35,429 bases of DNA from Williamsia faeni (GTDB lineage Bacteria > Actinomycetota > Actinomycetes > Mycobacteriales > Mycobacteriaceae), in the NCBI GenBank assembly GCA_003202005.1, contig QJJF01000022.1, positions 1 through 35,429 of the forward strand, read 5' to 3'. The translations under genes and the position numbers were made by a program. Numbering within the stretch: position 1 is the stretch's first letter; each line of letters starts with the position of its first letter. Below, one piece after another: positions 7,295-35,429 of this stretch. A model generated the notes under the pieces. The model made no database searches and was not told where the DNA came from. It worked only from the letters and a program-made list of their open reading frames with translations.

Positions 7295-7306
7295 CATACA
7301 CATACT

Positions 7307-7342: not shown

Positions 7343-7361
7343 GTTTTCTACCCCTATCCGA

Positions 7362-7685: not shown

Positions 7686-7726
7686 TGCGATTCCTAACTG
7701 TTAGAAGTATTGATAAATAGGGTCAT

Positions 7727-8030: not shown

Positions 8031-8044
8031 TGCTTCCTTCTTCG

Positions 8045-12017: not shown

Positions 12018-12082
12018 GAAGTATCCCCTCGACGAGGCGAATCCTTCAGTAGCACTGATTATTTCATCAGGAAGGCAGCGAT

Positions 12083-13024: not shown

Positions 13025-13154
13025 CTACCGCGACAGCCCACTCCGACGGTGTTCCACTTTCATGGTTCCTGTCCCTACCGAATCCAGAACGCTTGCTCTT
13101 GCAACACCATTCGCATACGACGCTCACACCCAACGACACTCGCGCAGGAGACCG

Positions 13155-15889: not shown

Positions 15890-15954
15890 ATTGGATAGAC
15901 CCTAGCTAGCTAGAGCTTCTGTTCAATCAACTCCGCCCGCGGCGTAGGCGCAGA

Positions 15955-16191: not shown

Positions 16192-16581
16192 TTGTACCGT
16201 TTCTCCTGGTAACTCGTGCTTGATCTGCGCTGATTGGATTTAGTGCAGCAGGCAGCCCGGCGCGTTCTGGTGGAACCATGTGCGTCGTCCAGGCTCGCAG
16301 TCCAGGTTTCTGCGCTGCGGCAGGTCGCGTCGGCCCACGCGGGCGCTGAACCGGGGACGGACCTTCGTCGCAACAAGCGAGTGCCCGCCGATATCGAAGA
16401 GGAGGTGTCCACGCCGATCGATGGAAGCCCGAGGACTCGGCCAGAACCTCGCAACAGCTCGCTCGATTGGACGAAGGCCTCGACACCGTCGTGGACGACC
16501 CCGGCGCCGATCTCCCTGGGACGAAGGTCAACAGCTGTATCATTTCATCAGAGCCCTCGTTCATCCGAAGACTCGGAGCCC

Positions 16582-16601
16582 GGTACGCAGAGGGTACGCA
16601 G
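16582..16601. repeat. Tandem 9-bp arm-type repeats, left arm
   Basis: GGTACGCAG occurs at 16582-16590 and again at 16593-16601, an 11-bp period of about one helical turn. The same pair is kept exactly at 35265-35273 and 35276-35284. Such phased direct repeats near an att core are the usual form of integrase arm-binding sites. Confidence 0.6.
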
Positions 16602-16734
16602 TAGCACCGAAACCGGCCAACATTGTCCAACCCCGCAAACACGAAAGGTGCTCCCCCACTACACAATCCAACAGCCCTCAACAACGCCAACGATCTGCAA
16701 ACATCCACAACCACAAGTTCAAAACCCGTCCAGT

Positions 16735-16762
16735 GTCAGTTCGAGTCTGACCGGGGGCACCA
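16735..16762 (+). other. tRNA 3'-end fragment (attachment core)
   Basis: GTCAG-TTCGAGT-CTGAC at 16735-16751 forms a perfect 5-bp T stem with a 7-base T loop. It is followed by CGGGGGC (3' acceptor strand), A (discriminator) and CCA at 16760-16762. An intact gene would begin GCCCCCG, which is not present upstream, so this is a fragment. Tyrosine integrases commonly use such 3' ends as crossover sites. The amino-acid identity cannot be told from this part. Confidence 0.75.
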
Positions 16763-17361
16763 CATTCGCGCTGGTCAGCGTGGTATCCCTGCTTCCAATG
16801 CTATCTGAACCGGCTCAAATACCACCCCCATGCTACCCACGGCGCGTCGTGCGGCGGCGTGTCAGAGCCCAGTGACACGATCCCCAGTGCATCCCCCGCT
16901 CGCTGTCACACCCGACGCCGGACGGTGTTCGAAGAGGTGAAGGCGGCGCTGCGGGAACCGGTGGACGGAAGTCTGTCCGTCGGCGTGCACCGGTGCGGCC
17001 ATCCTCTGCCGCAAACTCCCACTTCACGGGGCACTATCCGTCGTGGACACGCACCGCTGGCGGAAATCCACACGCGCGAAGACGCTCAGCACCTTCGCAC
17101 GTGCCGCAGGTCATCTCGCGAGGCGAGAACATCAATCCTCGCCTGCCGTACAGGGTCGCTAGGGTAGATACCGAAGCTCAGCTACCGTGCTACCCCCGTG
17201 CTACCCCACATCCGCCGACGACGCCGACACCATCGCCCGGTTCACTCACCCGTTGATCGTGAATCTCCGCGCAATGCCGTTCACAGCGAGCTCGAAAAGG
17301 CCCTGATGCGCGGCCGCGACGCTGCTATGCCCCGACGAAACCACAAAGGACGCTTAACCTT
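16763..17361. other. Integrase-side att arm, no gene seen
   Basis: These 599 bases lie between the tRNA core and the stop of the integrase. Open frames here are GC-driven and show no family resemblance. The stretch holds phased direct repeats at 17185-17206 and a related single CATGCTACCC at 16829-16838, so it most likely serves as the second att arm. Confidence 0.5.
17185..17206. repeat. Tandem 11-bp arm-type repeats, integrase-side arm
   Basis: CCGTGCTACCC occurs twice back to back (17185-17195, 17196-17206). Its complement GGGTAGCACGG resembles the GGTACGCAG repeats of the opposite arm, and the 11-bp period is the same. Together they fit paired arm-type binding sites for the adjacent tyrosine integrase. 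Confidence 0.55.
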
Positions 17362-18750
17362 TCACCGACCGAAGAGCTCGATCACATTCGACGACCCCGG
17401 CACTGAGTCGTGCACCGGCATCGGCTGGGGAAGGTTGTTGCCCGCACCGCCGTCCTCCTCGGGGATCCACTCGCCGTACGTATCCAGGGTCAGGGTGTAC
17501 GACCCATGCCCCAGCCACTGAGAGACCTGCATGAAATGCACACCCGCCGACAGCTGCATCGTCGCAAACGTATGCCGCCCAAAATCATGCAGACGCACCC
17601 CCCGCACCGCAGGTTCCGTCGCGGTGGCCGGCGCGCTCACCGGCAAACCCACCTGCACCAGCGCGGGCGCGAGCACCGTCTCGAAGAAGGTGCCGAGCTC
17701 GAGCGGTTGCGACCAATCCAACGGCACCGCATACCGCTGCCCCGCAGTGCGGTGTCCCCCACCGTTGCGCCTATTTGGCCACAGTGGTGCCTCCGCTTCG
17801 TGAGCGCGGGGATGATCGGCAGCCAGGTACTGGCGTAGCCGCTCGGCCAACCACGCCGGCAACGGCACCGACCGACGCGACCGCCGGGACTTCGGCGTGC
17901 TCGTGACCCACCGACCACCGGTCCGGTCTTTGGTCCGGCGGACCGCCACCACGCATCGGGTGTCCTGACCGGGCGCAGTGGTGAACTCCAGATCACGGAC
18001 CTCCAAGCCCGCACACTCCGCCTTGCGCACACCGGAATATGCAAGGAACAGCGTCATCAGCTCGTACACCGGGTATCGCTCCCCCACCAACGCAGCGACT
18101 TCGCCGACTTGCTGTGCTGTCAGCGGGTGGTGCTCGAACTTGTCGTGGTCGCCCACCGAATGCCCGGTGGCGAAGTCCACCTGGTCGGTCGGGCTCGATG
18201 CGATGGCTCCATGGCGCACCGCATATTTGCACACCGCCCGGAACGTTAGCCAGGCGTGTGTCACCGTCTTGGGCGCGAGGCCACGACCGACCAACTGTGC
18301 CAGAAACTCTTCGCAATCGTGCGGTGTGATGCCGGCAATTGCCGTGCCGCCGAACCGATCCAGCGAATACCGCTGCAGAACGTTCTCATAGTCATCGAGG
18401 GTGCGTTGCTTCAAACGCCCCTGTGCCACCTTCACCCGCTTACTGTCCAGCCACGCCCGCCCGTAAAAACCGAACGGCAGATCGCCCGCCTTGCGCTGCT
18501 TGGCCAGAGCGCTGGTACCACCGACATGCTTGGCCACGTTCAATTCGTCGCGGCGAGACTCCGCGGCCTCCCGAGTGGCGAACGACTCCTGCCGGTTACG
18601 AGACTTCTTACGCCCCTCAGGCTTCGCCGGGTCCTCAGGGATCGGCAAACCATCGGCGTCGCGCTCGACTTCCTTCCAGATCACCCGGTAGGTCTTCACG
18701 GGCTTGCCGTTGCGGCGCTGCTTGGTCTCATAGACCTTCACCCACGCCAT
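17362..18750 (-). CDS. Tyrosine site-specific integrase
   Basis: This is a 462-residue phage-type tyrosine recombinase. The order is an N-terminal arm-binding region (about 1-90, basic), a SAM-like core-binding domain (about 95-200), and the catalytic domain. All catalytic residues are visible: Arg242 in YSGVRKAE, Lys287, His388 and Arg392 in LHDFGRH, His415 in QWLGHG, and the nucleophile Tyr425 in LTLDTYGEW. It would integrate and excise the island at the tRNA 3' end beside it. The ATG overlaps the stop of the small upstream frame (TGATGG). Its orientation toward the att core is standard for such elements. The gene looks intact, so the island could still be mobile. Confidence 0.96.
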   Translation of the reverse strand: MAWVKVYETKQRRNGKPVKTYRVIWKEVERDADGLPIPEDPAKPEGRKKSRNRQESFATREAAESRRDELNVAKHVGGTSALAKQRKAGDLPFGFYGRAWLDSKRVKVAQGRLKQRTLDDYENVLQRYSLDRFGGTAIAGITPHDCEEFLAQLVGRGLAPKTVTHAWLTFRAVCKYAVRHGAIASSPTDQVDFATGHSVGDHDKFEHHPLTAQQVGEVAALVGERYPVYELMTLFLAYSGVRKAECAGLEVRDLEFTTAPGQDTRCVVAVRRTKDRTGGRWVTSTPKSRRSRRSVPLPAWLAERLRQYLAADHPRAHEAEAPLWPNRRNGGGHRTAGQRYAVPLDWSQPLELGTFFETVLAPALVQVGLPVSAPATATEPAVRGVRLHDFGRHTFATMQLSAGVHFMQVSQWLGHGSYTLTLDTYGEWIPEEDGGAGNNLPQPMPVHDSVPGSSNVIELFGR

Positions 18751-18983
18751 CAGGCCACCACCTTCCCCAGCCCGATGGACTCGCAGTCACCGCGCACAGT
18801 GGACAATTGCCAGGCAATCCGTCCAGCGGGGCAGACGTCGCCCGCCGAACCGAGCCGCTGGGTGATAACCCCGCAACGCCACCCCCGGACCCGCATCCCC
18901 ACCAAGCGCCGTGCCACCACGCAGGTGACCCGGCGCGGCCCACCGAACCTCACGGCCTCGGCCCTCGTCGCGGCGAACGCCAC
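18750..18983 (-). CDS. Small protein upstream of integrase, unrecognised
   Basis: A 77-codon frame with a GTG start ends in a TGA that overlaps the integrase ATG, which suggests translational coupling. It contains two CxV/CxxG-like cysteine segments (RVTCVVARR, DVCPAGRIAW). A frame starting at an ATG near 19025 (MTTRFARLERRLF) would run into it if one base were changed, so the gene may be longer and frameshifted. I recognise no family. Excisionases or directionality factors are often found in this position, but nothing in the residues proves it. Confidence 0.4.
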   Translation of the reverse strand: MAFAATRAEAVRFGGPRRVTCVVARRLVGMRVRGWRCGVITQRLGSAGDVCPAGRIAWQLSTVRGDCESIGLGKVVA

Positions 18984-19047
18984 CTCGGCCGAACCGCGAA
19001 CAACCGACGCTCCAACCGGGCAAACCTCGTCGTCATCAGACCGTCCA

Positions 19048-19266
19048 CTACGCCAAAAGCCAACGGGCCGAACACTTCGCCTTCACCTGGCGAGCCCGAC
19101 CCCCGTGCCTGCCGCAACCTTCCCAACCCTTGATAGCCACCCGTGTGCATGAGTCTCCGTTACCGCGATACACGCTGCACTGCCCTGCCGAAAATCGGTC
19201 CGACCACACCCCACCTCCTACCGGCGTAGCGGACGCAGCGTGATCGCCTTGCTTCTCGTCGAGCAC
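19048..19266 (-). CDS. Small Cys/His protein with HGG motif
   Basis: This 72-residue protein has the pattern C-x6-10-G-x2-C-x-R-x-A-I-K-G-x4-C-x2-H-G-G, seen in QCSVYRGNGDSCTR followed by AIKGWEGCGRHGGR. It is like the small HGG-type putative zinc-binding proteins common in actinobacterial phages and integrated elements. Three cysteines and a histidine could hold one zinc ion. The function of that group is not known to me. It lies upstream of the integrase in the same direction and is probably part of the element's core gene set. The N-terminal 25 residues look unconserved, so an internal start is possible. Confidence 0.5.
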   Translation of the reverse strand: MLDEKQGDHAASATPVGGGVWSDRFSAGQCSVYRGNGDSCTRVAIKGWEGCGRHGGRARQVKAKCSARWLLA

Positions 19267-19392
19267 ATTGCCAATCGCCTACCTCGTACCAATCACACGC
19301 CAAACCGTAAACCCACCACCGACACATGTCCCGAACACCCGCGCCAGTGCAACCGCCCGGATGCCCGACGGCGTGCCGCGCGAACTGCGACC

Positions 19393-19623
19393 TCAGTAGT
19401 TACCGATTATCGACTCCACCCGCTCAGATAATCGAGCTGCGCTAATGGTTTTAGCAGCAGCTACTTCACCGCCTTCAGTGGCGTAGAGCAGTCGATTCGC
19501 GACCTGCCCTATTGCGTGCCCGTCGCACTCAAACTTTGGCGGCATTCTTGAATTTGCGCCGCGTTCAGCGGAAATAGTTACGGCCCGAACCACGCATACG
19601 TGCAGTTCCAGGCCGTATCTCAT
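19393..19623 (-). CDS. Possible small protein beginning at tRNA fragment
   Basis: A 76-codon frame begins at an ATG directly after the discriminator base of the tRNA fragment (19623) and ends at 19393. The C-terminal half (GQVANRLLYATEGGEVAAAKT...) looks protein-like. The frame remains open upstream through the tRNA fragment, which codes for the familiar GVRIPSGA shadow, so the true start is unclear. I recognise no family. The 126 bases between it and the HGG protein hold no clear gene. Confidence 0.25.
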   Translation of the reverse strand: MRYGLELHVCVVRAVTISAERGANSRMPPKFECDGHAIGQVANRLLYATEGGEVAAAKTISAARLSERVESIIGNY

Positions 19624-19661
19624 TGCGCCCGAGGGGATTCGAACCCCTAACCTCTTGTTCT
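19624..19661 (-). other. Second tRNA 3'-end fragment
   Basis: On the minus strand, AGGGG-TTCGAAT-CCCCT (19648 to 19632) forms a perfect T arm. It is followed by CGGGCGC and a discriminator A at 19624, then ATG instead of CCA. The upstream ACAAG-AGGTT could be the end of an anticodon stem and a variable loop, but no D arm or GCGCCCG 5' acceptor is present. This is a partial tRNA of a different species from the one at 16735, likely the scar of another integration event or a captured attachment core. Confidence 0.55.
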
Positions 19662-19777
19662 CGCCTCCTCCATCTCCTACAGTCCACAACCATCCATGCG
19701 CGACGGGACTGTCAGAACAACGGTGGATCTGATCTTGGTTTGACACGCCGAGCATTGCTTGGCGGAAAGGATCAGAG

Positions 19778-20293
19778 ATGTCCGAAACACTCGAGCCCAT
19801 GACAAACGAGGTGGATCAAAAACAGTTGGCTGAGCAGCTCCTGGCGCAGGCCAAGGAGCAGGGCGTGGATTTGATCGGCCCGAACGGGCTGCTCAACCAG
19901 TTGACGAAGAACGTGCTCGAAACCGCGTTGGATGCGGAGATGACCGAGCACCTCGGGTATGACAAGCACGACCCGGTCGGCCGCGGCAGCGGCAACTCCC
20001 GAAACGGTATGCGATCGAAAACGGTGCTGACCGAGATCGGGCCGGTCGAGATCGAAGTACCGCGGGATACGAACTCCTCGTTCGATCCGCAGATCGTCAA
20101 GAAGCGCCAGCGACGTCTGACGGGTATCGATGAGATCGTATTATCCTTAACAGCAAAGGGATTGACGACCGGAGAAGACGCAGCGCACTTTCAGGATATC
20201 TTTGGTGCGTCGGTGTCGAAGGACACGATTTCCAAGATCACCGACAAAGTCGTCGCCGAGATGACCGAGTGGGTCAACCGGCCCCTGGATCGG
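19778..20293 (+). pseudogene. IS256-family transposase, 3' truncated
   Basis: The first 172 residues match the N-terminus of mutator/IS256-type transposases: a QLTKNVLETALDAEMTEHLGYDKHD start region, GNSRNGMRSKTV, IEVPRDTNSSFDPQIVKK, and SKDTISKITDKVV. Family members have about 400 residues with a DDE triad. Here the frame is lost just after NRPLDR (about 20293), where an IS30-type element begins, and the missing catalytic part is not found on the other side. The gene cannot make an active transposase. The ATG is preceded by GGAAAGGA. Confidence 0.9.
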
Positions 20294-20307
20294 AGGCAGT
20301 CTCTAGC

Positions 20308-21235
20308 GAACGTTGCGAATCGTGGACCAGGAGATTGCCCATGCCACGTGGAGGACACAACCGTGTCTCGCTTGAGATCAAGCGCACCTACTACGAACTG
20401 ATCCGGCAGGGTGGCCCGGCGCCGAGGCAGAGCGCCGGGTCAGCGTGTCGCTGAGCTGCGGATCGCTATGGTTTATCGATGCTGGGGGTGTGAAAATTGC
20501 CGAATCGAAGCCCATCAGTTCGCGGTACTTTAGCCAGAACGACAGGATCGAGATCGCCGACGGACTCAGCTGCGGTGAGCCCGTCAAGGCGATAGCTGCC
20601 CGGATCGGGAAGAGCTACCAGAGCGTCTACCGGGAGATTTCACGCAATAAGAAGTTCGACGGCACCTACCAATCCTGGTATGCCCACAACCAAGCATTCC
20701 TGCGCCGGCGCCGCCCGAAAGAACGGGTAATCGAGACCGAGTTCAGATTGCGAAATGCCATCGCAGGCAAACTCTCTTCCTGCTGGTCCCCCGAACAGCC
20801 ATCGCCACCTTGGTGGAACGAAAGACAAGACTGACCAGACTCGTACACCTGTCCGGCAACCACTCGGCGCAGACCGTCGCCGACGCACTCATTGACGAAT
20901 TCACCGCTCTACCAACACAATTGACGCGCACTCTGACCTGGGACCAAGACAATGAGATGTTCCAGCACGGCAGGATCGAGGCCGCGACCGGGCTCAGCAT
21001 CTACTTCGCCGACCCCCACTCTCCCTGGCAACGAGGGACGAACGAATACACCAATAAGCTCCTGCGGCAGTACTTTCCAAAAGGAACCGATCTCGGCCAA
21101 TGGAGCCAGGCGCACCTTGATCGCGTCGCCACCGAGCTCAACCATCGGCCCAGAAAAGAACTGCACGACCACACACCGCACCAACTCAGGCAAGGGTTGC
21201 GCTACCGACTAAAACACAACAGATTCGCATCGATC
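20308..21235 (+). mobile_element. IS30-type insertion sequence remnant
   Basis: Imperfect terminal inverted repeats are visible: GAACGTTGCGAATC at 20308-20321, and its partner GATTCGCATCGATC at 21222-21235, with 12 of 14 matching. They enclose the decayed IS30-type transposase. The left end abuts the broken IS256-type gene, so it inserted there. The absence of the rest of that gene on the right implies a later deletion or rearrangement. The exact boundaries are approximate. Confidence 0.55.
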
Positions 21236-21274
21236 CTTGGAATCTGCCCCCGGAGGTTGTCGACACGGTCTTGA
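20341..21274 (+). pseudogene. IS30-family transposase, frameshifted and internally deleted
   Basis: Three pieces are recognisable. From ATG 20341 comes the start (MPRGGHNRVSLEIK). After a 1-base frameshift near 20409-20412, where a WPGA-type sequence resumes in another frame, comes the helix-turn-helix region IEIADGLSCGEPVKAIAARIGKS and SVYREISRN, ending at WSPEQ (about 20799). The frame then jumps to the DDE catalytic part IATLVERKTRLTRLVHL, WDQDNEM and PHSPWQRGTNE...LLRQYFPKGTDL. About 120-130 residues between WSPEQ and TLVERK are deleted. The last residues run through the right inverted repeat into flanking DNA. It is inactive. Confidence 0.9.
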
Positions 21275-21342
21275 GTCGGTAACCGTTGCGGTTGGGTGCT
21301 GCGGCCTTCGGTGCGCTGGTAGCGGCCGGCTCCGATCCCGTC

Positions 21343-21687
21343 CTACGACTGCGGCGTAGACGTAGACGTGGGCGTCGTTGTCGCAGACGGCTGACCCGAC
21401 CCCATCGTCCCGCCAGGTCCCACTCCGCCGTGCCGCATCATTGACCCACGCGGGCCCATCTGGTTGCTCTCGTAACCGTGATGCCCACCGTGGTGGCCAC
21501 CGGAGGCATGACCGGCGACGAACCCGGAGAAGAAGATGAGCGCGACGATGAACACGACGCCCGCGGCGATGCCGACCCATGCAAGAACCTGGTAAAGCCG
21601 ATTGGGCCGCTGATCCCTATCGTCGTGCCGGGGTGCCGGCACAATTGTCTCTGATGTCGCTGCATTGGATTCGGGTGTTTCAGTCAT
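21343..21687 (-). CDS. Small single-pass membrane protein with His/Gly-rich tail
   Basis: This 114-residue protein has a charged N-terminal region (1-32) and one membrane segment (about 34-57, LAWVGIAAGVVFIVALIFFS). A tail follows with HHGGHHGYE at 65-73, several Met residues, and a Thr/Ser/Pro-rich end. The His cluster could bind metal ions such as copper or nickel; this is inference. Similar short proteins are common in mycobacteria and relatives without known function. It lies alone between two transposase relics and has no visible operon partner. The ATG at 21687 is the natural start of the frame. Confidence 0.65.
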   Translation of the reverse strand: MTETPESNAATSETIVPAPRHDDRDQRPNRLYQVLAWVGIAAGVVFIVALIFFSGFVAGHASGGHHGGHHGYESNQMGPRGSMMRHGGVGPGGTMGSGQPSATTTPTSTSTPQS

Positions 21688-22324
21688 GTTCGGTGCGATT
21701 CCTCGGAGCGGTCCCTAACACTGGGGCCGGGTGGTGTTGGCGTCCATCGGTGATTGGTCAGTCGATCTCACACGCCCCAATGACGTGGTGACATCGACAG
21801 GTTTCAACTTACCACCGCGATCCTGGCAGGAAGCTGGGAAAAGCCTTCCAGCTGACTACATGTGACACGACAAGAGGGGCTGCCGGGACGAACCCATCTG
21901 ATCGACCGCGATCTGAATCGCAGCGGCGTGCTCGTCGAGAACACTTGGTGCTTGGCGGGCGGGACATGGGTTCGGCAATCTGGACGGCGAGGTCCGCAGG
22001 ATCGCCGAAATTGGTCTGGAGCCACTTGGGCGAAAGACTCAACACAATGGATTTCGAACATTCCCAGACAGCTCGGCGCGCGCCCAACCGGACATCGAAC
22101 CCAGAAGCGCGGACCTTATTTGCGAATGCGGCGACCGGAACGCGGTGTTCGCCAGCATCGACCACGTGTATTCGTTTCTGACCCGCCTCGCAACAGTCCC
22201 GGTATACCTAGCCACGTCGGCGAGGTCGGCGGTAGTCCGCGGCGCGGGACCCCCGCCCTGACTCGGCCGTTGAACTCATCTCGGTTGGCATTATCAAGTT
22301 ATTGGTGGGCTTGGCGATTCGGGT
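21688..22324. other. Non-coding or eroded DNA between IS relics
   Basis: No gene can be supported in these 637 bases. A minus-strand frame at 21809-22165 contains a protein-like stretch (VPVAAFANKVRASGFDVR) and may be the remnant of a lost gene. Its family is not recognisable, and the rest of the frame is not protein-like. Confidence 0.3.
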
Positions 22325-23037
22325 CTATCGTTCACGTTTGGCGCGTCGGTTCTGACGGAAAAACCTGTCCCAGTCACCTTGAAGCGCGGTCGTCGCGGTG
22401 ATCTCGTTCCAGACCCCGAAGCGGCCGGCCATCACCAGCCGGTACCCCGCCGCCGACAGCAGGTGTCGATGGCACCAGAAATGCGGCCAGATGCCGCACA
22501 ATGCCGACACGAAACCTCTGCGCGCGCCCGATCGATTTGAAGCGTTTCATCGCCCACTCACGTTGCCGGGTCGGTTGGTTTGACATTCTCGCCCCGATTG
22601 TTCGGCGACTTCGATTTCCGGTGTTCCACCGAGGGCATCACCACGCGGTGGGCGGGCCCGTAGCCGGAGAGCCTGCTGTTCGCCAGTCCCCCCGCGGCAC
22701 ATAGCGCAAATCCCTCGAGCAGTTTGCGGAAGAACTTTCAGGCGGCATTGGCGTTTCGGCGTGACCGCCCCAATACCTCGAGCACCTTGCCACGTTGGTC
22801 GATCGCGCGCCACAGGTACCGCTGTGCGCCAGTGATTTTCACAAACCCCATCAATGGGAACCACGCCGACCGGGTCGAAGCACATCGAGTTTTGGCGTCG
22901 CGGACCGCGCGACGGCGCGGCATCGCCGGCTTCGAACTTCTCCACGACTCGTTTGACGGTCTTGTGGGTGTGCCGCACATCTCGGCGGCGCCTGCCCTCT
23001 GTGGTGGCTGTGGCTGCGCGAGGCGTGGATTCTTCAC
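22325..23037 (-). pseudogene. IS6-family transposase, heavily frameshifted
   Basis: Reading the minus strand through several frames recovers pieces of an IS6-type transposase in order: FVKITGAQRYLWRAIDQRGKVLEVL, RRNANAA, a stop, KFFRKLLEG, SGYGPAHRVVMPSVEHRKSKSPNN, then NQPTRQREWAMKRFKSIGRAQRF, and finally LCGIWPHFWCHRHLLSAAGYR...FGVWNEITATTAL. At least three frameshifts and one in-frame stop separate them. The N-terminal third is barely recognisable. The DDE residues may be partly present, but no active protein can be made. It abuts the end of the lectin gene. Confidence 0.8.
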
Positions 23038-25346: not shown

Positions 25347-25457
25347 TTCACTGTCCTCCTGCTGCGCCTTCAAACCCCGAGTGGACAAGAGGGTATCGCG
25401 CCACAGGTGCTGTTGACGTGCGTAGTCCACTACCTGTTGTGTTTCGACCGACATGTC

Positions 25458-26737: not shown

Positions 26738-26898
26738 GTGACTCCCCTTGCGCGCAGTTCGTTGAAAACCAACTTCCTTTGGCGCAGCCTACGTCAGCTA
26801 GCGCTTGAGGACACGAGGATTCGCCGGTGATTCATTGCCGGATCCGTTGCGCGGAGCGAGAAAAAACGATCAACCGGATTTTCTGGCATGGTCGAATC

Positions 26899-27450
26899 AT
26901 GGACGACCGTGGAGATCAGAATGTAGCAGGTGAGATGGCATCTACTCGCCAGGAAGGCGACGCTGCCAATGCGCCTCGGTCTACGCCGAAACAGCGCGCC
27001 GGCAGGGTAGGCCGAGCCTGGCAGAAAAGCTTGGACCCAGGACAGCAATCCGCAGTGCTGTCCTGGGCATCGTTCACCGCCACCTTTGCAACCGTGCGAG
27101 CGTTGACTCACTGGATCCGGGCAGGCCACGGCCCGAGCAGTGGTGGGATGAGCGTCGGCGGCAAGCATTTCCATCATTACAACATCGGGATAGCAATGCT
27201 CGGTGGAGTTGGGGCCATCGCGATACGCGGCGCCGAGAAGCATCGGCGGCACCCGATCACCGCGCTGAGCTACGGCGTGGGCGCTGCACTCATCGTCGAT
27301 GAACTCGCACTACTTCTCGACCTCGAAGACGTCTACTGGTCGCAACAAGGTCGCAAGAGCGTGGATGTCGCCATCACTGTCATCGGGGTCGGAGGCCTCG
27401 CAGTCACGGGCTTCGCCTTCTGGCCCGAAGCACGCAAGGCACTCAGGTAG
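26899..27450 (+). CDS. Conserved integral membrane protein, unknown function
   Basis: This protein of about 183 residues has a polar, basic N-terminus and three or four membrane segments. The sequence GGKHFHHYNIGIAMLGGVGA, followed by HPITALSYGVGAALIVDELALLLDLEDVYW, is distinctive: a histidine cluster at the edge of one membrane segment and several acidic residues inside the next. I recall similar hypothetical proteins in actinobacteria but no function. Starts are possible at 26827 (GTG), 26899 (ATG) and 26935 (ATG, with AGGTGAG close by); the first residues are not conserved enough to decide. It converges with the flotillin gene across a short region containing a 20-bp palindrome. Confidence 0.7.
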   Translation: MDDRGDQNVAGEMASTRQEGDAANAPRSTPKQRAGRVGRAWQKSLDPGQQSAVLSWASFTATFATVRALTHWIRAGHGPSSGGMSVGGKHFHHYNIGIAMLGGVGAIAIRGAEKHRRHPITALSYGVGAALIVDELALLLDLEDVYWSQQGRKSVDVAITVIGVGGLAVTGFAFWPEARKALR

Positions 27451-27486
27451 CGACCACGGAACCGGTGGCTGGCCTGCACGCAATGT

Positions 27487-27506
27487 TGCATACATATATG
27501 TATGCA
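27487..27506. promoter_or_regulatory. Perfect 20-bp AT-rich palindrome
   Basis: TGCATACATATATGTATGCA is a perfect palindrome in the 91 bases between two convergent genes. Its lack of a loop and of a T tract argues against an ordinary terminator. The TGCATACA half sites look more like an operator of a dimeric regulator, though the position between gene ends is unusual for one. Confidence 0.5.
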
Positions 27507-27541
27507 CGTCTGGCGAGGTTACAGACACACGCTGAGAAGCC

Positions 27542-28675
27542 TTATTGTGCGTCGAGTTCGGGCTGGGGATCTGTCTCTGACGTGTTTTCTGTCGGGTCGT
27601 GCTGACCGAGTCCGCTGCGGAGGGCGTCATAGATTGTCAAGCCCTGCCCAACCAGACCGCTGGCTATTTCACTGAGACCGTCGGCGCCGTTGAGGACGGT
27701 GACATTAGCCCCCGACAATCCCAGGGCTGCCTGTTTGACTATCTCGGGGAGTTGATCAATCAATAACCGGTCGAGTGCTACCCGGTTGTGCGATGCTGCC
27801 GCTTCGGCCTGGATCTTCATCTTCTCGGCTTCGGCCAGGGCGAGTATCCGCACCCGCTCAGCCTCCGCTTCGGCCGGTTTGACCACTTCTGAGACCAGTT
27901 CCTGCTCTCGAAGTTCCGCCGCTCGCTGCGCGAGTTCGGTTTGCATCGCAAGCACTTCCCGCTGCGCCTGTGCCTGCGCTAACGGTCCCGCCTGGGCAGC
28001 CTCGGCCTGCGCCTTGTCGACCTCAGCTTTGTACTGGGCTTGCACGATCGCGGTCTGACGAGCGAACTGCGCCTGATTGCGTCGCGATTCCTGCTCCGCC
28101 TCCGCAGACTCCTGGTCAGCTCTGGCCTGGGCGATCTGCGCCTGCTTTTGGATCGCGGCGTTGTGCGGAGCGGACATCGCGATGATGTAGCCGAGTGCGC
28201 CGTCGTCGATGGACTGAATCTGCAGGGCGTCGACAGTCAACCCGATCTTGACCATTTCCTGCTTCGATCCGTCGAGCACCTCAGTTGCCAACTTCTGGCG
28301 CTCCTTGATGATCTGCTCCACCGTCATCGATCCGATAATCGAACGGAGGTGGCCGGCAAAGATCCGGCCGGTGAGCACTGACATCTGATCCTGGTCGGAC
28401 AAGAACCGTTGTCCCGCACTGACAATGCTCTCGGTGTCGTTGCCCACCTTGAATGCGATGACGGCCCGTACGTTGAGGCTCAGCCCCTGCTGGGTCACAC
28501 ACGTTTCAGCCACCTCGGCCTCGCACATCGCTAGCGTCAGAAACCGAACCTTGCGAAAGAACGGAGCGACGAAGGCGCCATGGCCGGTCACCACCCGAAA
28601 AGGGGCGTCACCCTTGCTCCTGCCGCCGGAGATCAGCATCGCCTCATCCGGTGCGGGCACTCTGTAACCAAACAT
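27542..28675 (-). CDS. Flotillin-like SPFH domain protein
   Basis: This 377-residue protein of the flotillin/prohibitin group opens with a band-7/SPFH domain (about 1-170), including MFGYRVPAPDEAMLISGG and QGLSLNVRAVIAFKVGND. A long Ala/Glu/Gln-rich coiled coil follows (about 185-310), with AEAEQESRRNQAQ and EAEAERVRILALAEAEKMK. The C-terminal region (LPEIVKQAALGLSGANVTVLNG) is typical of flotillins. Such proteins form membrane-associated oligomers that organise lipid domains and help membrane stress responses. No hydrophobic anchor is obvious. A small NfeD-like gene lies 52 bases upstream on the same strand, the usual partner arrangement. Flotillin genes are rarely cargo of integrated elements. 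Confidence 0.92.
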   Translation of the reverse strand: MFGYRVPAPDEAMLISGGRSKGDAPFRVVTGHGAFVAPFFRKVRFLTLAMCEAEVAETCVTQQGLSLNVRAVIAFKVGNDTESIVSAGQRFLSDQDQMSVLTGRIFAGHLRSIIGSMTVEQIIKERQKLATEVLDGSKQEMVKIGLTVDALQIQSIDDGALGYIIAMSAPHNAAIQKQAQIAQARADQESAEAEQESRRNQAQFARQTAIVQAQYKAEVDKAQAEAAQAGPLAQAQAQREVLAMQTELAQRAAELREQELVSEVVKPAEAEAERVRILALAEAEKMKIQAEAAASHNRVALDRLLIDQLPEIVKQAALGLSGANVTVLNGADGLSEIASGLVGQGLTIYDALRSGLGQHDPTENTSETDPQPELDAQ

Positions 28676-28727
28676 GTCTACAACCCCTCGCTCATCGCCA
28701 TGCTTTGTTTTCTGAACACAACCCTTG

Positions 28728-28958
28728 TCACCACAGCCTCATCGCTGGCCACGGCTCAACCTCCACCGTCCGAGGTCCCTTGGTGTCAATCACCAACACC
28801 TCGGTGCCCCTGGCCAACGGTTCCTGCGACCAAGCGAGAAAGAGTTCCTTCGATCCCCGCACCGACACCATCACCTCTCCCGCGCCATCGCCACCGCGGG
28901 TCGCCACAACCAGCGAACCTGTACACCCAATCACCGAGATATCACTCACCTCCCCCAT
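28728..28958 (-). CDS. Small NfeD-like OB-fold protein, flotillin partner
   Basis: This protein of about 76 residues matches the soluble C-terminal OB domain of NfeD proteins: GSLVVATRGGDGAGEVMVSVRG, then SQEPLARGTEVLVIDTKGPRTVEVEPW. There is no membrane segment or protease domain. In many bacteria such proteins are encoded next to flotillins and act with them. The start at ATG 28958 fits the domain best; ATG 29042 or an upstream codon at 29183 would add a low-complexity leader. It lies directly upstream of the flotillin gene and is probably co-transcribed with it. The 389 bases between this start and the AhpD-like gene at 29348 should hold divergent promoters; no other gene is seen there. 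Confidence 0.7.
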   Translation of the reverse strand: MGEVSDISVIGCTGSLVVATRGGDGAGEVMVSVRGSKELFLAWSQEPLARGTEVLVIDTKGPRTVEVEPWPAMRLW

Positions 28959-29347
28959 GCTGCCCCCTGAACTCACTTCCCCGCAGAGAACCAGCAGATG
29001 GGAAGCGGGAGTCGAGGTACGGGCGGGCCGGTGCTCCGACATCTCTGCCCCACCGGCCCGCAACAACACAGTATCGAATGTATGTTCCCCTGAGTTATTT
29101 CGTGGGCGTCCCCCGGAATTGCATTTAAGCGATCTGGGTGTCCCAGTCCTGCGCTCTCTGAACCGTACAGTCAGATGACCCAAGCGGGGTTTGGCCCGTC
29201 CATGTCATTGTTTCTTGGTGCCAAGATGCTTTGAGCGTTGCTCCGCTTCGCCAGTACCAACTGGTACGAAAACCGTTATCCGTCAGAATTGTTCACTCTT
29301 ACCGCGCGGGCTAATTGTGTTGCGGCAGACAGCTGGGAGGTTCAGAT

Positions 29348-29824
29348 ATGTCCAGAGCACGGATTGATATGGCGAAGAATGCACCTGCGAGTTACGCCGC
29401 GTTGGGCACACTCGCGGCGGCTGCTGAATCCGAGGCCAAGGACTCGGGCTTGGAGTCAGCGCTCATTGACCTGGTGAAGATCCGGGCCTCGCAGCTCAAT
29501 GGCTGCGCGTTCTGTCTACGTATGCACACGCGGGAAGCGGTGGCAGGCGGTATGGGTTCGGATCGTCTCGCGGTCTTACCTGCGTGGCGAGAGAGCCAGT
29601 ACTTCAGCACCGTCGAACAAGCCGCCCTGTCCATCGCCGAGGCGATAACTTTCATCTCCGCTCAAATTCTGGACGATTCTCTATATGACTCTGCGCGCAG
29701 GCATCTCGACGACAGACAGATCGCCGCGATTGTGTGGGTGACCATCGCTATCAACGGCTTCAACCGTGTGGCCATCAGCAGCCACTATCACGTTGGTCCC
29801 GAGGTTGGCCACGTGTCCGACTGA
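29348..29824 (+). CDS. Carboxymuconolactone decarboxylase/AhpD-like protein
   Basis: This 158-residue protein of the AhpD-like alkylhydroperoxidase family carries the redox motif CAFCLRMH, with Cys53, Cys56 and His60. This matches the CxxC...H site used for peroxide reduction with thiol partners. The surrounding helix LIDLVKIRASQLNGCAFC and the later VAISSHYHV are typical. GGGAGG precedes the ATG. It probably detoxifies peroxides or acts as a small thiol reductase. The next gene, an alpha/beta hydrolase, follows after 105 bases in the same direction, and the pair may respond to the same stress. The family also includes decarboxylases, but the CxxC motif argues against that here. Confidence 0.92.
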   Translation: MSRARIDMAKNAPASYAALGTLAAAAESEAKDSGLESALIDLVKIRASQLNGCAFCLRMHTREAVAGGMGSDRLAVLPAWRESQYFSTVEQAALSIAEAITFISAQILDDSLYDSARRHLDDRQIAAIVWVTIAINGFNRVAISSHYHVGPEVGHVSD

Positions 29825-29929
29825 GGTGAACTCAGCATTGAGTCATCCGACCGAAGCGGGGTGCCCGCGGGCGGTTCACCATCGAAGGACGCCGGTCCGC
29901 CGAGGCCACCATCCAGATCGGGAGTTCCC

Positions 29930-30730
29930 ATGGTCGAAAACAAATCTCACGTCGTCTTCATTCACGGTTTGTGGCTGCACTCAACGTCGTGGCAACAGTG
30001 GGCCGATTTGTACGCTGCTCGAGGTTACGTCTCCTACACCCCGGGATGGCCTGGTGACGCGCCCACAGTTCAGGAGACACGCGATCACCCGGAGTCCGTC
30101 GCCGATGTCGGTATTCAGGAGGTGTTCGAGCACTACGCACAGTTCATCGACGACCTGGAGGCACCGGCGGTGCTGATTGGCCACTCGTTCGGTGGCATGC
30201 TCGTAGAAAAGCTGCTCGGGGAAAACCACGGTATAGGGGGGATCGCAATCGATGCCGCTCAGATCAAAGGTGTTTTGCCACTGCCCCTCTCGTCACTGCA
30301 TGCTACGTTGCCGGTGTTCAAGAATCCGGCGAACAAACACCGCGCAGTTTCGCTGACCGCCGATGAATTTCACTACGCCTTTGGTAACGCGGTGAGCCGG
30401 GAACAGTCCGATCTTTTGTACGAGCAGTGGACGATCCCCGCTCCTGGGCGGCCGCTGTTCGAGGCAGCGGCTGCGAACTTCTCGCTCCATTCGCCGGCAA
30501 AGGTGAACACCGAGAACAACGCCCGCGGGCCGTTGCTTTTGATCATGGGAGGCCGCGATCGCACTGTCCCCGAAGCGATCACCAAGTCGACTCTCAAGCA
30601 ATACAAACACTCCACCGCTGTGACCGACCTCGTCGAGTTCGCTGATCGGGGCCACTCGCTGACCATCGACAGCGGCTGGCGTGAGATCGCTGAATCCTGT
30701 CTGTCCTGGCTCGACGCGCAAGAACTCTGA
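29930..30730 (+). CDS. Alpha/beta hydrolase
   Basis: This 266-residue cytoplasmic alpha/beta-fold hydrolase has the oxyanion motif FIHGLWLHSTSW and the nucleophile Ser86 in GHSFGG. Asp210 in GGRDRTVP and His242 in RGHSLTID complete the triad. The start at ATG 29930 is chosen because GGGAG lies upstream and the family begins at VVFIHG; the longer frame to 29861 has no such support. Members include esterases, lactonases and haloperoxidase-like enzymes; the substrate is not evident. It is followed after 60 bases by a second, exported alpha/beta hydrolase. Confidence 0.92.
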   Translation: MVENKSHVVFIHGLWLHSTSWQQWADLYAARGYVSYTPGWPGDAPTVQETRDHPESVADVGIQEVFEHYAQFIDDLEAPAVLIGHSFGGMLVEKLLGENHGIGGIAIDAAQIKGVLPLPLSSLHATLPVFKNPANKHRAVSLTADEFHYAFGNAVSREQSDLLYEQWTIPAPGRPLFEAAAANFSLHSPAKVNTENNARGPLLLIMGGRDRTVPEAITKSTLKQYKHSTAVTDLVEFADRGHSLTIDSGWREIAESCLSWLDAQEL

Positions 30731-30790
30731 GTACACCGGACCGCATCACCTCGTCCGCCCCATCACCAATTCCCACACGAAGGATTCGCT

Positions 30791-31603
30791 ATGAGAATGA
30801 CTCGCTTTCGTTCGATCGCGGCTGCGGCCCTGGTGACCATCTCTGCGCTGTCGATAGGTGCCGGTGCCGGCGCCGCGTCGGCAACCGAACGACCAACCGT
30901 GGTCCTCGTCCATGGCGCCTTTGCGGACGCGACGAGCTGGGATGGGGTGGCATCGGATCTACGTTCTCGTGGTTACCGCGTCGTGGTCCCTGACATCGCG
31001 CTGCGGGGGCCGGCTCACGACGCCGACGAGGTCGATCGTGTGGTGTCGTCGATCCCGGGCCCGGTGATTCTGGTGGGCCACTCCTATGGCGGCGTGGTGG
31101 TCACCAATGTGCACGCCACCAACGTCGCAGCCCTGGTGTACGTCGCCGCGTTCATTCCGGACCAGGGCGAGCCCGCAATGCTCGCACTCAATCCGATCCA
31201 GTACCCCGGATCGCAACTTCTCCCGCCGGTGTTGCAAGTGAAAACGGTCGACGATCCCACCGCACCGTTCGGCAAGAACGTGGACGGATACATCTCTCGC
31301 GAGTCCTTCCACAGCGTGTTCGCCCAGGATGTCTCCGATGCCACCGCCGAGACCATGTATGCCCATCAGAAGTCGCAAGCGCTGAGCGCCAACCTCGAGC
31401 CCACAGGCGTACCTCTGTGGAAAACCACGCCGAGCTGGGCACTAGTCCCTTATGACGACCGAGTGATCCCACGCTCATCGGAGCTCGCGATGGCCCAACG
31501 TGCATCTGCGCACATCACCTCGGTCCCTGGTTCACACGCGGTCCTGGTATCCCAACCCCACGCAGTGGCGAACCTGGTTGCACTCGCCGACGCTGGAAGC
31601 TAA
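30791..31603 (+). CDS. Secreted alpha/beta hydrolase
   Basis: This 270-residue alpha/beta hydrolase has an N-terminal signal peptide: basic MRMTRFR, a hydrophobic core at about 8-23, and a probable cleavage site after ASA near residue 31. It has HGAFADATSWDG for the oxyanion hole, Ser98 in GHSYGG, acidic Asp222/223 in VPYDDRVIP, and His249 in GSHAVLV. This HGAFADA/GHSYGG type is common in actinobacteria and usually annotated as esterase or salicylate esterase-like. It lies downstream of a cytoplasmic relative and converges with the LuxR-type regulator gene, only 22 bases between the stops, with no hairpin visible there. Confidence 0.92.
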   Translation: MRMTRFRSIAAAALVTISALSIGAGAGAASATERPTVVLVHGAFADATSWDGVASDLRSRGYRVVVPDIALRGPAHDADEVDRVVSSIPGPVILVGHSYGGVVVTNVHATNVAALVYVAAFIPDQGEPAMLALNPIQYPGSQLLPPVLQVKTVDDPTAPFGKNVDGYISRESFHSVFAQDVSDATAETMYAHQKSQALSANLEPTGVPLWKTTPSWALVPYDDRVIPRSSELAMAQRASAHITSVPGSHAVLVSQPHAVANLVALADAGS

Positions 31604-31625
31604 ACGCCTTCGCTGATCACGCCAG

Positions 31626-34370
31626 TCATCGCGCTCGCTCGAGCGCCGATCGCAGTTGGCCACGAGAGGAGACTCCCAACTTCGGAAACAGCCGGTACAG
31701 ATGCGATCCGACAGTGCGATGGGACAAGTACAACCGTTGGGCGATCTCTCGATTGCTCAGTCCGTCGGCGGCGAGCTGCGCGATCTGAAGTTCTTGCGGG
31801 GACAACACTGTGGTGGCCACGACTGGCTGCTTGCCGACGGCCTCACCGGTCGCGCGCAATTCGTGCCGGGCGCGTTGGGCCCATGACGCCATAGCGAGTG
31901 CGTCGAAGCTGTCGCGTGCAGACCGAAGTGGAGTGCGCGCGTCAGCGATCCGGTACTGACGCCGAAGCCAGGAACCGTACTCGAGCAGAAGCCGTGCGCG
32001 ATACCACGGCCAGTTCGACAGACTCGACGCCAGCGCCTCCTGAAACGCAGTGTCGGCGTGGGTGTCATCGGCCAGCAGAGGGCGCGCGTAATGCAGTGCG
32101 GCCTGGCTCCACGGCGACGCCAGGGATGTGTCTGTTTGCCGATAAATGCGGTCGGCGATCTCGGTGACTTCGCGGATGTGTCCGCTACGCAACCCAGCTT
32201 CGACCATGTCGCCAAACGCCCACACGCTTTGCACCTGATGGAAAGCCGGGTCCGCAGGATCAAACAACCGCACCAAATGGGAGAAGGCCTCGTCGTAGTG
32301 ACCTCGTCCGATCGCCCCGATCCCACGCATCAACTGCAGTCCGCACAGCACCGGGTTCGAACGCAAGGGAAGCACGATGCGTTCGGCCTGCTGAGCCAGG
32401 CGATAAGCACTATCGGCATCACCGTGAAGTGCGTCGATCAGCCCTTGACCCAGCAGCGCAGACGCTTCCCACAGTGGCTGCCGCGTTTCCTCTGCAAGAC
32501 GCCGCGCCTCGTCGAGTGCAGGCACGGCAATAGCCCAGTTCGCCATCGCGATTGCAGTCCACGACTGCATCAGCAGCACCCTGGGTAAGCTCGCGAGCTG
32601 TCCACGCAGGCGCACATCGTCAACAACTTTGCGTTGCAGCGAGGCAATCGCGGTGTCGCTTCCGACGATGAACACCGACACTGCCAGCTCCGCGGCGAAT
32701 GGATCGGCGAGTTCTTCCAGTCCCATCCGTTTGACCCGTTCGATGATCATCGGTCCGTACGTGCTCGGGTCGGTGTACCCGATGATTGACAGGCGGCGAG
32801 GATCATCGGTGTCGACGTTCAGCTGTTCAGTTGCTGCGATGATGTGATCGCGCGCTGCACGTCCAGGGTCTCCGGACCAGGCGTGTGCCGCCGCCGCCAA
32901 CAAGACCTGGATCGCCAAGTCGGTGTGACCGCTCTCGATGGCCGTGAGCGCCAGGTCTGCGAGTGCGTCCACACGCGCCCCGTCACCCGGTGTCGCCGGG
33001 ACCACCGCATCTCGCACAAGAGCTACTCGGATGTGCTGGGTGAAGCCTTCGACGATGGGCTCCGCGATCCGGGCCAACTCAGCGGCCCGCCCGACATCGC
33101 CTAGTGCAAGCAGGATTTCGGCGGCACGCAGGAGCCTGCTACCCCGCGAGGACTTATCCGGGCTCAGCGCTGCGGCCCGTTCCCATGCCTCGACGCTCGC
33201 TTCGCGGGCCCCACGTTGCTCAGCTGCGGTAGCCACCAGTTCAAGTGCATACGCAACGTGCTCGTCGGGTCCCACAGCTGCGGCGGCCAAATGCCAGGCT
33301 CGGCGCTCGGGGACCTCGACGAACAAGTGGGCCATCGCGGCGTGAGCATGGGTGCGCTCGGACAGCGTTGCACTTTGGTAGATCGCTGAACGCATCAGCG
33401 GGTGCCGAAATATCACTCGCCGGTCGCGTATCTCAATCAGTTTGGCATCCAGCGCCCCTGATAGGACCTCCACGGACACCGTGGTTGCCGCTGACTGGAA
33501 AGCAGCGGCCTGGAGAATCACAGATAGGTCAGCGGTGTCGTCCGTGGCAGCGGCGATCAAAGCCAGACGGGTCAGCGGGCGCAACTCGGTGAGCCGAGCG
33601 GCGAAGCTCTGTTCAAGTCGCTCCGTCAAAGGCGGTGCGCTTTCAGTCTCGACCGCCTGGTTGATTCCATATGTCCTCGGCAATTCCACCAGAGCAAGGG
33701 GATTGCCTTCTGCCGCGGCCAATACCCGTTGCCGGGTTTCCTCGTCCAGCAATGGATGTTCTGCGCGCAGCATGTCAACGGCCGCGTCTTCGCCCAGTGG
33801 GTCTACTCGAACGATCGCAAGGTCTGCAGCTGTAAGAGGAGACTGGTAACCCTCACGCATCGCAGCGACCATCGCGATCGGATCGGCAGCAACCCGCCGG
33901 CCGACAAAGGCCAGCACCTGCGACGACACCGAATCGATCCAGTGAGCATCATCGACAACGACCAGCAGAGAGTCGGTCGCCGCCAGCCCAGTCAAGAGTT
34001 CCAGCACCGCAAGCGCGACGAGGTAAACATCTGGGGGTGGCCCATCAATCTGGCCGAACGCGGTGCGCAACGCCTCACGCTGCTTGGGCCACAACATCTC
34101 CAAGCGATCGCCGACGGGGCGCAGCAACTGGTGCAGCGCAGCAAATGGCATCGCCGTTTCCGACTGCGAGCCGGTCGCCTGCAGTACGCGCCGCCCGCTC
34201 GCGCGCGCCCGATCCGCCATCACCCGTAACAACGCCGACTTACCAATTCCCGGGGATCCGACTAGTAGAACCGCAGAGCCGTTTTCGTCCGCGGACACAC
34301 TTTCGAGCACGCCGAGTTCAGACTCCCGACCGACAATGGCCGGCGCAGGCTGGCGACCGTTCACATACAA
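31626..34370 (-). CDS. LuxR-family (LAL-type) ATP-binding transcriptional regulator
   Basis: This 914-residue regulator has an N-terminal AAA/NACHT-like ATPase with Walker A GSPGIGKS (38-45) and Walker B SLLVVVDDAHWID (about 134-146). A long helical TPR-like middle (about 350-840) follows, then a C-terminal LuxR helix-turn-helix in the last 60 residues (LSPQELQIAQLAADGLSNREIAQRL). Large LuxR-type regulators of this design bind ATP and a ligand or partner, and activate nearby catabolic or secondary-metabolism operons. Its likely targets are the hydrolase and AhpD-like genes that face it, or its own promoter region shared with the small gene at 34577; this is inferred from position. It appears complete. 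Confidence 0.95.
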   Translation of the reverse strand: MYVNGRQPAPAIVGRESELGVLESVSADENGSAVLLVGSPGIGKSALLRVMADRARASGRRVLQATGSQSETAMPFAALHQLLRPVGDRLEMLWPKQREALRTAFGQIDGPPPDVYLVALAVLELLTGLAATDSLLVVVDDAHWIDSVSSQVLAFVGRRVAADPIAMVAAMREGYQSPLTAADLAIVRVDPLGEDAAVDMLRAEHPLLDEETRQRVLAAAEGNPLALVELPRTYGINQAVETESAPPLTERLEQSFAARLTELRPLTRLALIAAATDDTADLSVILQAAAFQSAATTVSVEVLSGALDAKLIEIRDRRVIFRHPLMRSAIYQSATLSERTHAHAAMAHLFVEVPERRAWHLAAAAVGPDEHVAYALELVATAAEQRGAREASVEAWERAAALSPDKSSRGSRLLRAAEILLALGDVGRAAELARIAEPIVEGFTQHIRVALVRDAVVPATPGDGARVDALADLALTAIESGHTDLAIQVLLAAAAHAWSGDPGRAARDHIIAATEQLNVDTDDPRRLSIIGYTDPSTYGPMIIERVKRMGLEELADPFAAELAVSVFIVGSDTAIASLQRKVVDDVRLRGQLASLPRVLLMQSWTAIAMANWAIAVPALDEARRLAEETRQPLWEASALLGQGLIDALHGDADSAYRLAQQAERIVLPLRSNPVLCGLQLMRGIGAIGRGHYDEAFSHLVRLFDPADPAFHQVQSVWAFGDMVEAGLRSGHIREVTEIADRIYRQTDTSLASPWSQAALHYARPLLADDTHADTAFQEALASSLSNWPWYRARLLLEYGSWLRRQYRIADARTPLRSARDSFDALAMASWAQRARHELRATGEAVGKQPVVATTVLSPQELQIAQLAADGLSNREIAQRLYLSHRTVGSHLYRLFPKLGVSSRGQLRSALERAR

Positions 34371-34576
34371 CCCTTTCGGCCCGGTATTTCAACCCGCACT
34401 CCTCAGCCACCGCCTTCACAGTGTCCGAATCTTGCTGACTCACAACATCTACCGCGATCACAAACAGGTCGACTCACACCCAGGTTCAGTCATCTGGCTC
34501 TAGCTCGAACACTACGACACGTCCTAGGTTTCTGTAGTCCCTACGAGACGCTTTAGCCGATACCCAGGAGAAGAAA

Positions 34577-34831
34577 ATGAACCGAGTACCCGACTCCGAG
34601 TTGACCATGATCCCGGGCGAAACCCTCATCACGGACTCCCCTGCCGCGGGCCGGGCGTTGGCCTTCGCCATCGCCCGGCACACAATCCACAACATCCAGC
34701 CCGACCTGGACGTTCTCATCGGCGGCCGCCCGGTCTATTCGACATCACCAGACAGCTTGATCGCCGCCGGACAGGTCGTCGCTCTGGAGTTCCAAACCAT
34801 TGCCGCCGCAAACAACTACTGGAGGCCGTGA
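34577..34831 (+). CDS. Small protein, unrecognised
   Basis: This 84-residue soluble protein has a strong AGGAGAAG ribosome binding site seven bases or so before the ATG, which supports its being real. It has an N-terminal segment with GETLITDSP, a helix AAGRALAFAIARHTIH, and a strand pair DLDVLIGGRPVY and VVALEFQTI. I recognise no family. It is divergent from the LuxR-type regulator, with about 206 bases between them, so it may be under its control. The DUF1622 gene follows in the same direction after 59 bases. Confidence 0.6.
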   Translation: MNRVPDSELTMIPGETLITDSPAAGRALAFAIARHTIHNIQPDLDVLIGGRPVYSTSPDSLIAAGQVVALEFQTIAAANNYWRP

Positions 34832-34890
34832 GTCACCGATCTCCTTGCTTTCATACTCTGGTCATCTGGGTGTGGACGGTTTACTGAACA

Positions 34891-35259
34891 ATGACCTTCG
34901 ATGAGTTCATCGCGCGCACAGGGCAAGCCATTGACTGCGTTGGCGTCGCCGCGATCGTCATGGGCGCCTTGGTCGCCTTGGGGGTGGCGGCTGTCCGATT
35001 TCGCCGTCACGAGCCCAACGTTTACAGCGTGTTCCGACAATGGTTGGGACGGTCGATCCTGCTCGGCTTGGAGCTTCTCGTGGCCGCGGACATTATTCGC
35101 ACCGTAGCAACCAGACCGACGATGGGAGGCGTTGCCATACTCGCCGGAATCGTGCTGATCCGAACCTTCCTGAGCTTTTCCCTCGAACTGGAGATCTCCG
35201 GCCGCTGGCCATGGCAAAAAGCCCCCACGCCAACCCCTCGCCCCAGGACCACCGCCTAA
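34891..35259 (+). CDS. DUF1622 family membrane protein
   Basis: This 122-residue protein has three membrane segments (about 14-36, 52-70 and 78-97). The DUF1622 signature reads LLGLELLVAADIIRTV ... LAGIVLIRTFLSFSLELEISGRWPW. The family is widespread and of unknown function. The tail after WPW is Pro/Thr-rich. It ends two bases before the right att repeat, so it is the last gene of the island. The context (redox, hydrolase and regulator genes) gives no direct clue to its role. Confidence 0.88.
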   Translation: MTFDEFIARTGQAIDCVGVAAIVMGALVALGVAAVRFRRHEPNVYSVFRQWLGRSILLGLELLVAADIIRTVATRPTMGGVAILAGIVLIRTFLSFSLELEISGRWPWQKAPTPTPRPRTTA

Positions 35260-35260
35260 C

Positions 35261-35429
35261 GCCCGGTACGCAGAGGGTACGCAGTAGCCTCGAAACCGCC
35301 CAACGCTGTCCAACACCCTCAAACACGAAAAGCTCTCCCCCACTACATGATCCGAATGTACTCAATAGCGCCAACGATCTGCAAACAACCACAACCACCA
35401 GTTCAAAACCCGTCCAGTGTCAGTTCGAG
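35261..35429. repeat. att-site repeat, right copy (cut by window end)
   Basis: This is the second copy of the repeat at 16578-16745, with the paired GGTACGCAG sites at 35265-35273 and 35276-35284 and an identical last stretch ending GTGTCAGTTCGAG. The window stops inside the T loop of the tRNA 3' core, so the remaining acceptor end and CCA should follow just outside. It marks the probable right boundary of the island. Confidence 0.75.

Follow-up and report, generated by a model that had tools for sequence, protein, structure and literature searches.

Mixed ends and many junctions in a probable tandem array of integrative islands at a tRNA-Leu(CAA) gene of Williamsia faeni

Stacks of genomic islands at one integration site are a known kind of structure. 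Integrative and conjugative elements (ICEs), integrative mobilizable elements (IMEs) and cis-mobilizable elements (CIMEs) accrete head to tail, as in the tRNA-Lys composite of Streptococcus agalactiae, where the internal attachment (att) site is chimeric (PMC5704250). The islands at ssrA in Dehalococcoides lack the integration module in 15 of 31 cases, and over a dozen repeats are known across strains (PMC3146451). We examined a 35,429-nucleotide stretch of Williamsia faeni (the window; GenBank contig QJJF01000022.1), and we consider that it most probably comes from the interior of a tandem array, whose integrative islands entered site-specifically at a single tRNA-Leu(CAA) gene. The number of its junctions and the mixed ends of its units make this array a variant of the known kind.

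The array resembles the S. agalactiae composite in its head-to-tail units and their place at a tRNA 3' end, in a chimeric internal att site, in integrases that are less than 30% identical and in decayed members that keep their att sites; it differs in that the composite consists of two elements whereas the array has a dozen or so junctions, and in that ends of two integrase types bound single units (PMC5704250). Among the families typical of an ICE, AICE or IME, relaxase, FtsK-type translocase and conjugation families were all missing from the Pfam results for the 57 distinct open reading frames (ORFs) tested. Arrays of Salmonella genomic island 1 likewise hold several tandem copies at one att site, but those are copies of one element, up to 6 (PMC5704250). 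With the Dehalococcoides islands the array shares the tandem arrangement at one RNA gene, the catabolic cargo and the integration module at the left edge. There, however, the recombinase is compared with CcrB (serine type), the repeat is a 20-bp ssrA repeat and everything lies within 100 kb (PMC3146451), whereas our array has tyrosine integrases, tRNA-Leu(CAA) and a repeat including a 140-bp arm. A Dehalococcoides-type ssrA island with a DsiB-type serine recombinase was ruled out by the tyrosine integrase and the tRNA-Leu core. A literature search, with subscription journals mostly outside its coverage, found no report of this locus.

The window is the whole of contig C22 in a 44-contig genome of 5.52 Mb, so its ends are assembly ends. 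A sequence-only reading had taken two repeats in it for junctions of two related elements lying side by side at one tRNA. Both repeats, at 16578-16745 and 35261-35429, are real: they are direct, diverged copies with 87.6% identity over a 169-column alignment (E 3e-55), and a second comparison recovered the same pair as two ungapped pieces (89% and 87%). The identity first given, 80-85%, was slightly low for the whole repeat, the arm part alone reaching 85.3%. Each copy has an arm of about 140 bases with two direct GGTACGCAG sites and leads, as had been read, into a tRNA 3' part, starting at 16718 and at 35402. The core matched the tRNA-Leu of congeners at 44/44 bases from 16718 and at 28/28 bases from 35402 up to the contig end. 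The window thus stops on the right inside an att core, 35402-35429 being cut within a 95-base stretch common to one end of contig C20. The features of the two junctions are as follows (C20rc is C20 reversed).

16225-16577, + strand: extended right terminus, common with the right end of the C20 unit (C20rc 44657-45178 against window 16225-16745, 92%)
16578-16717, + strand: type-B right arm; GGTACGCAG occurs twice in direct orientation, at 16582 and 16593 (arm and profile analysis)
16718-16761, + strand: att core, the 3' part of tRNA-Leu(CAA) from the anticodon loop onward (44/44 against congener tRNA)
16762-17210, + strand: type-A left arm with GCTACCC at 16832, 17189 and 17200 (site search)
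17362-18750, - strand: tyrosine integrase IntA, 462 amino acids, intact (PHROG_1 integrase, E 1.2e-41; invariant residues)
18751-19526, unstranded: remainder of the conserved left module, without annotated function (similarity to C20 and C26)
35261-35401, + strand: type-B right arm closing the window unit, with GGTACGCAG at 35265 and 35276 (arm and profile analysis)
35402-35429, + strand: start of the next att core (28/28 bases, contig end)

A single insertion, with the left repeat as a secondary att-like site, would likewise give two repeats. This account is extremely improbable: at the left junction a full right arm stands where a tRNA 5' half would be expected, just as the sequence-only reading had noticed, and many more junctions exist, so that we ruled out a single insertion by junction number and make-up. 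ARAGORN found no complete tRNA in the window, and no tRNA in 12 pieces of contigs C11 (to 160 kb), C20 and C26.

We found 14 junction matches in the W. faeni genome. A profile of arm plus core, built from 10 of its own copies and 2 congener copies, gave 15 matches below E 0.001 when 767 kb of own contigs were searched; 9 were profile-building copies and 6 independent (one being the tRNA), and 7 of 22 rows, with E>0.001, were excluded from this count. Three block-shuffled copies gave 6 matches with a best E of 0.72, and this control, together with the E-value of the repeat pair, argues that the junction repeats are not due to chance. On C11 (185 kb), all 9 profile matches (junctions or remnants) share one strand and span 12.4 to 162.3 kb; two of them, at 131034 and 162271, are short or weak. 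The matches elsewhere run in the same sense once C20 is reversed. The tandem integration proposed from the sequence is therefore supported, but with many more junctions than two, so that two elements are too few. The five junctions outside C11 have an unchanged tRNA core as far as their sequence goes (44/44 in three, 28/28 in two), whereas the cores of all five core-bearing C11 junctions are altered, with 31 to 42 of 44 bases kept; this contrast may be partly an assembly bias, because identical repeats end contigs.

Junction copies could also have spread by homologous recombination or duplication, and not by repeated integration. C20 and C22 end in an identical 95-base stretch, and C11 has 1.1 kb in common with C26 (96.5%) and 3.3 kb with C20 (75%), but few other similar stretches between units were present among the matches listed and the arms of different junctions differ by up to 25%, which makes such spread quite unlikely. 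At C11:34310 and 34472, two cores stand about 160 bp apart, as if the intervening unit had been almost wholly deleted. At C7:163604-163764 (- strand), a type-B right arm and its degenerate core stand alone as an orphan copy, some 3.3 kb from paired tRNA-Ser and tRNA-Arg genes.

An intact tRNA beginning with GCCCCCG and a second integrase, both expected from the window, were found together on C14: the tRNA-Leu(CAA), the likely target, lies at C14:76456-76531 and adjoins IntB, an integrase of a different type, 26% identical to IntA. The integrase just right of the first repeat is intact as described, in an uninterrupted frame of 462 codons. Residues R242, H388, R392, H415 and Y425 of IntA did not vary in an alignment of 8 sequences, two of them each containing a single stop (read as X), and we take these residues to be the catalytic R..HxxR..H..Y residues of tyrosine recombinases. 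Against Pfam PF00589, IntA scored 23.7 bits, under the gathering score of 27.1, and it is not among the 7 PF00589 matches of the genome. Copies about 91% identical are present on C20 (intact) and C26 (frameshifted). Among nine named loci of the IntA family, tRNA-Leu(CAA) is near four and tRNA-Leu(TAA) near one. In one of the named loci, L090 of Tsukamurella conjunctivitidis, tRNA-Leu-like cores flank the IntA element on both sides, and the examined locus yielded no tRNA gene; it is probably another tandem. A plasmid origin was rejected, 13 plasmid records matching IntA with one at 70% over a piece of 23% coverage and 12 at 23-27%, and a phage origin is doubtful, all 150 phage matches being below 60% identity (23-28% in the 15 listed). 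No relative was found in the viral contigs of IMG/VR. On C11, two ORFs at candidate positions for an integrase (104029-105678 and 131072-132484) had no integrase match in Pfam or PHROGs. C14 also holds a second tyrosine-recombinase-like ORF, at 90117-91289, with 391 amino acids and weakly like IntB.

Three junctions (C22:16578, C20:44300 and C26:3997) join a GGTACGCAG-bearing type-B arm to a GCTACCC type-A arm followed by IntA. The sequence-only reading had seen the element arm at both window junctions, and the claim can be widened: the sites on this arm belong to the other type of integrase. All 10 right arms of the array that retain the site region have at least one GGTACGCAG, and in genome G011, whose integrase is of IntB type (48-49% identical), GGTACGCAG is present on either side. 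The 16578 junction is a chimeric site of type-B right arm, core and type-A left arm with IntA, of the kind described for accreted elements (PMC5704250), and the array appears to mix the DNA ends of two different integrases. Unexpectedly, the fully bounded IntA units (C20 and window, 2/2) start A-type and end B-type, and a third, from C26 into window 1-16745, would do so too if the contig link holds.

The same array could have come by these units in several ways. The IntA units may be a true hybrid family, with the A-type left and B-type right ends fixed and multiplied as such, which we regard as a real though tentative possibility. Their left modules are 87-89% alike over 3 kb (window 16491-19526 against C20rc 792-3830, 89%; window 16580-19704 against C26 3997-7141, 87%), two right ends are 92% alike over 522 bp, the 1 kb to the left of each junction core is free of A-pattern matches, and a profile search found no trace of an internal core in C20, C22 or C26. 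Against this, among IntA relatives the 320-bp stretch to the left of the distal core contains GCTACCC but not GGTACGCAG in L088, L089 and L090, and neither motif in L094, and the function of a hybrid attP (the attachment site of the element) is putative. In the left arm, GCTACCC occurs in L088, L090 and L094, and L087 and L089 are without its exact form. Alternatively, each hybrid unit may combine an A island with the B island that came next, the two having fused when the junction separating them was lost. B-right/core/A-left is indeed what results when an A island integrates at a B island's right att site, and truncated junctions are present on C11; this fusion is nevertheless doubtful, as it needs two or three complete junction losses, and C20, C22 and C26 hold no trace of the lost A-right/core/B-left junction and no IntB piece apart from the IntA genes themselves. 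It seems rather unlikely that islands with IntA left ends adopted a type-B right arm and that the shared right end keeps the stack in play. By that same, scarcely probable account, two integrase families would jointly act on one pool of units, and units without integrase would be excised, reordered and re-inserted in trans; the likeness this would have to integron cassettes, with the tRNA gene as platform, is drawn with the same reserve.

We compared the array at the tRNA-Leu(CAA) gene with relatives. The gene is intact in 8/8 congeners, and in all eight it is preceded by the same upstream sequence, which we read as a putative response-regulator gene. With the tRNA counted, junction matches numbered 4 in G002, 2 in G006 and 1 in each of the other six. 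In G006, arm and core close an insert of 5.5 kb; past this insert G006 continues as G008 does directly at its tRNA, so that the two form one filled and unfilled pair. The W. faeni tRNA differs from those of all 8 congeners at 2/44 core positions, which fits a tRNA 3' half supplied by an island. In a survey of the family, 343 of 401 genomes matched the junction, with two candidates scored per genome so that copy numbers are lower bounds; with all candidates scored, 14 selected genomes had 1-4 matches each. The array holds more junctions than the relatives compared. The flank common to G008, G016 and G025 maps to C18 of W. faeni.

Contig overlaps, together with synteny in two congeners and with elimination, point to C14-C25-C28-C20-C26-window-C11 as the order, which sums to about 270 kb up to C11:131 kb. 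Stretches of 95 bases are common to many contig ends, and C25 and C28 overlap directly by 95 bases. Synteny was read from two congeners, G003 and G007, which carry counterparts of C16, C24 and C13 one after another, with gaps of 1.24 and 0.78 kb. The right end of C14 and the left end of C24 align at one edge of the first gap and C25 and C16 at the other, and the second gap is flanked by C26 and C24 and by C22 and C13. If the W. faeni chromosome keeps C16-C24-C13, then C14-C25 and C26-C22 are second paths, and the left contig end of the window was paired with C26 by this fork and synteny. C13 and C24 were dropped as parts of the array, their counterparts forming one block with that of C16 in these congeners. 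C20 and C22 both end in core, and the remaining array contigs that start at the shared repeat are C26 and C11; we paired C20 with C26 and C22 with C11 by elimination, because joining C22 to C26 would close a circle.

Several points weigh against one array in this order. No contig runs from the C14 tRNA into either the window or C11, C28 can continue into C20 or into C3, the C20-C26 and C22-C11 links rest on elimination, C25 and C16 share just 23 bases at the very end (though 94% over 995), which weakens that step, and contigs C29-C44, possible holders of links, read as N. The right end of C11 reaches no flank, and some C11 genes (KdpA and KdpD types, a LysX-like protein) could be ordinary chromosome; the labels LysX-like and pdtaR-like are presumptive ones. 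G008 has about 30 kb between its tRNA and the C18-type flank, and in G004 and G005 a stretch of about 13 kb downstream of the tRNA matches C17, not C18. Two of the nine named IntA-family loci are near tRNA-Met and two are without tRNA. The best-preserved junctions sit on shorter contigs, which may be assembly bias. The location of all units at the C14 tRNA would follow from a contig order drawn partly by elimination, and we infer both.

The remaining features of the window are its cargo and transposase fragments.

1-16577, unstranded: cargo of the unit left of the first junction (Pfam, 10 ORFs)
19778-21274, + strand: Mutator- and rve-type transposase fragments inside the window unit (Pfam, the rve match being below its cut-off; similar stretches in congeners)
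21862-35260, unstranded: cargo of the right unit (Pfam)

The left cargo comprises an APH-type kinase, enoyl-CoA hydratases, a P450, a Zn-dehydrogenase, an aldehyde dehydrogenase, a CoA-transferase III and a solute-binding protein split over two frames. The assignment of the cluster at 1-15.9 kb to a left element would hold, that island having probably begun on C26, where the frameshifted IntA copy adjoins. Had these genes been conserved core, relatives should carry them as such; no block was found in the 8 congeners, the listed pieces longer than 1 kb being at 64-79% and none longer than 2.7 kb. Yet homologues of several of these genes are grouped in a chromosomal region of G003 C4 and of G007 C8, which places them among the kinds of gene that the genus also keeps elsewhere. 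For 18751-35260, no piece longer than 0.6 kb was among the congener matches listed. The right cargo encodes an 806-amino-acid protein, an SPFH/flotillin-type protein, a CMD-family protein, two alpha/beta hydrolases, a LuxR-type AAA regulator and a DUF1622 protein. ORFs sampled with Pfam from C11 (21 of 60 ORFs of at least 330 amino acids) and C20 (12 of 28 of at least 180) gave metabolic, transport, regulatory and peptide-synthetase genes and the LysX-like protein. Virion families were absent among the ORFs tested (10 in PHROGs, 57 in Pfam). The 44-kb IntA unit of C20 carries a pyruvate-carboxylase-type gene, an amidase, an amidohydrolase and an acyl-CoA synthetase, and the carboxylase gene has a 75% identical counterpart at C11:41491-44780. 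Window 1-1802 and the start of C13 are 82% identical, and their 95-base ends are the same. The near-identical stretches that array cargo has in common with a chromosomal catabolic block may stem from gene conversion or from a recent exchange.

Under the array reading, each island would have entered by tyrosine-integrase recombination between its attP and the tRNA-derived core, each integration bringing a replacement tRNA 3' end, and boundaries would run in the order right arm of island n, core, left arm plus integrase of island n+1. Units that keep an integrase gene (C14, C20 and the window; frameshifted on C26) are probably younger, and the C11 units, with altered cores and at most integrase remnants, may be fixed or cis-mobilisable relics. 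We infer such relative ages, as well as the route by which the islands arrived and any present mobility.

If the order is true, repeated insertion at a single tRNA gene built up about 270 kb, some 5% of the genome, and left a layered record whose outer layers look decayed. The array would then lend itself to two questions: whether attachment sites can be shared between unrelated integrases, and how metabolic clusters build up in units that have so far shown no transfer gene.

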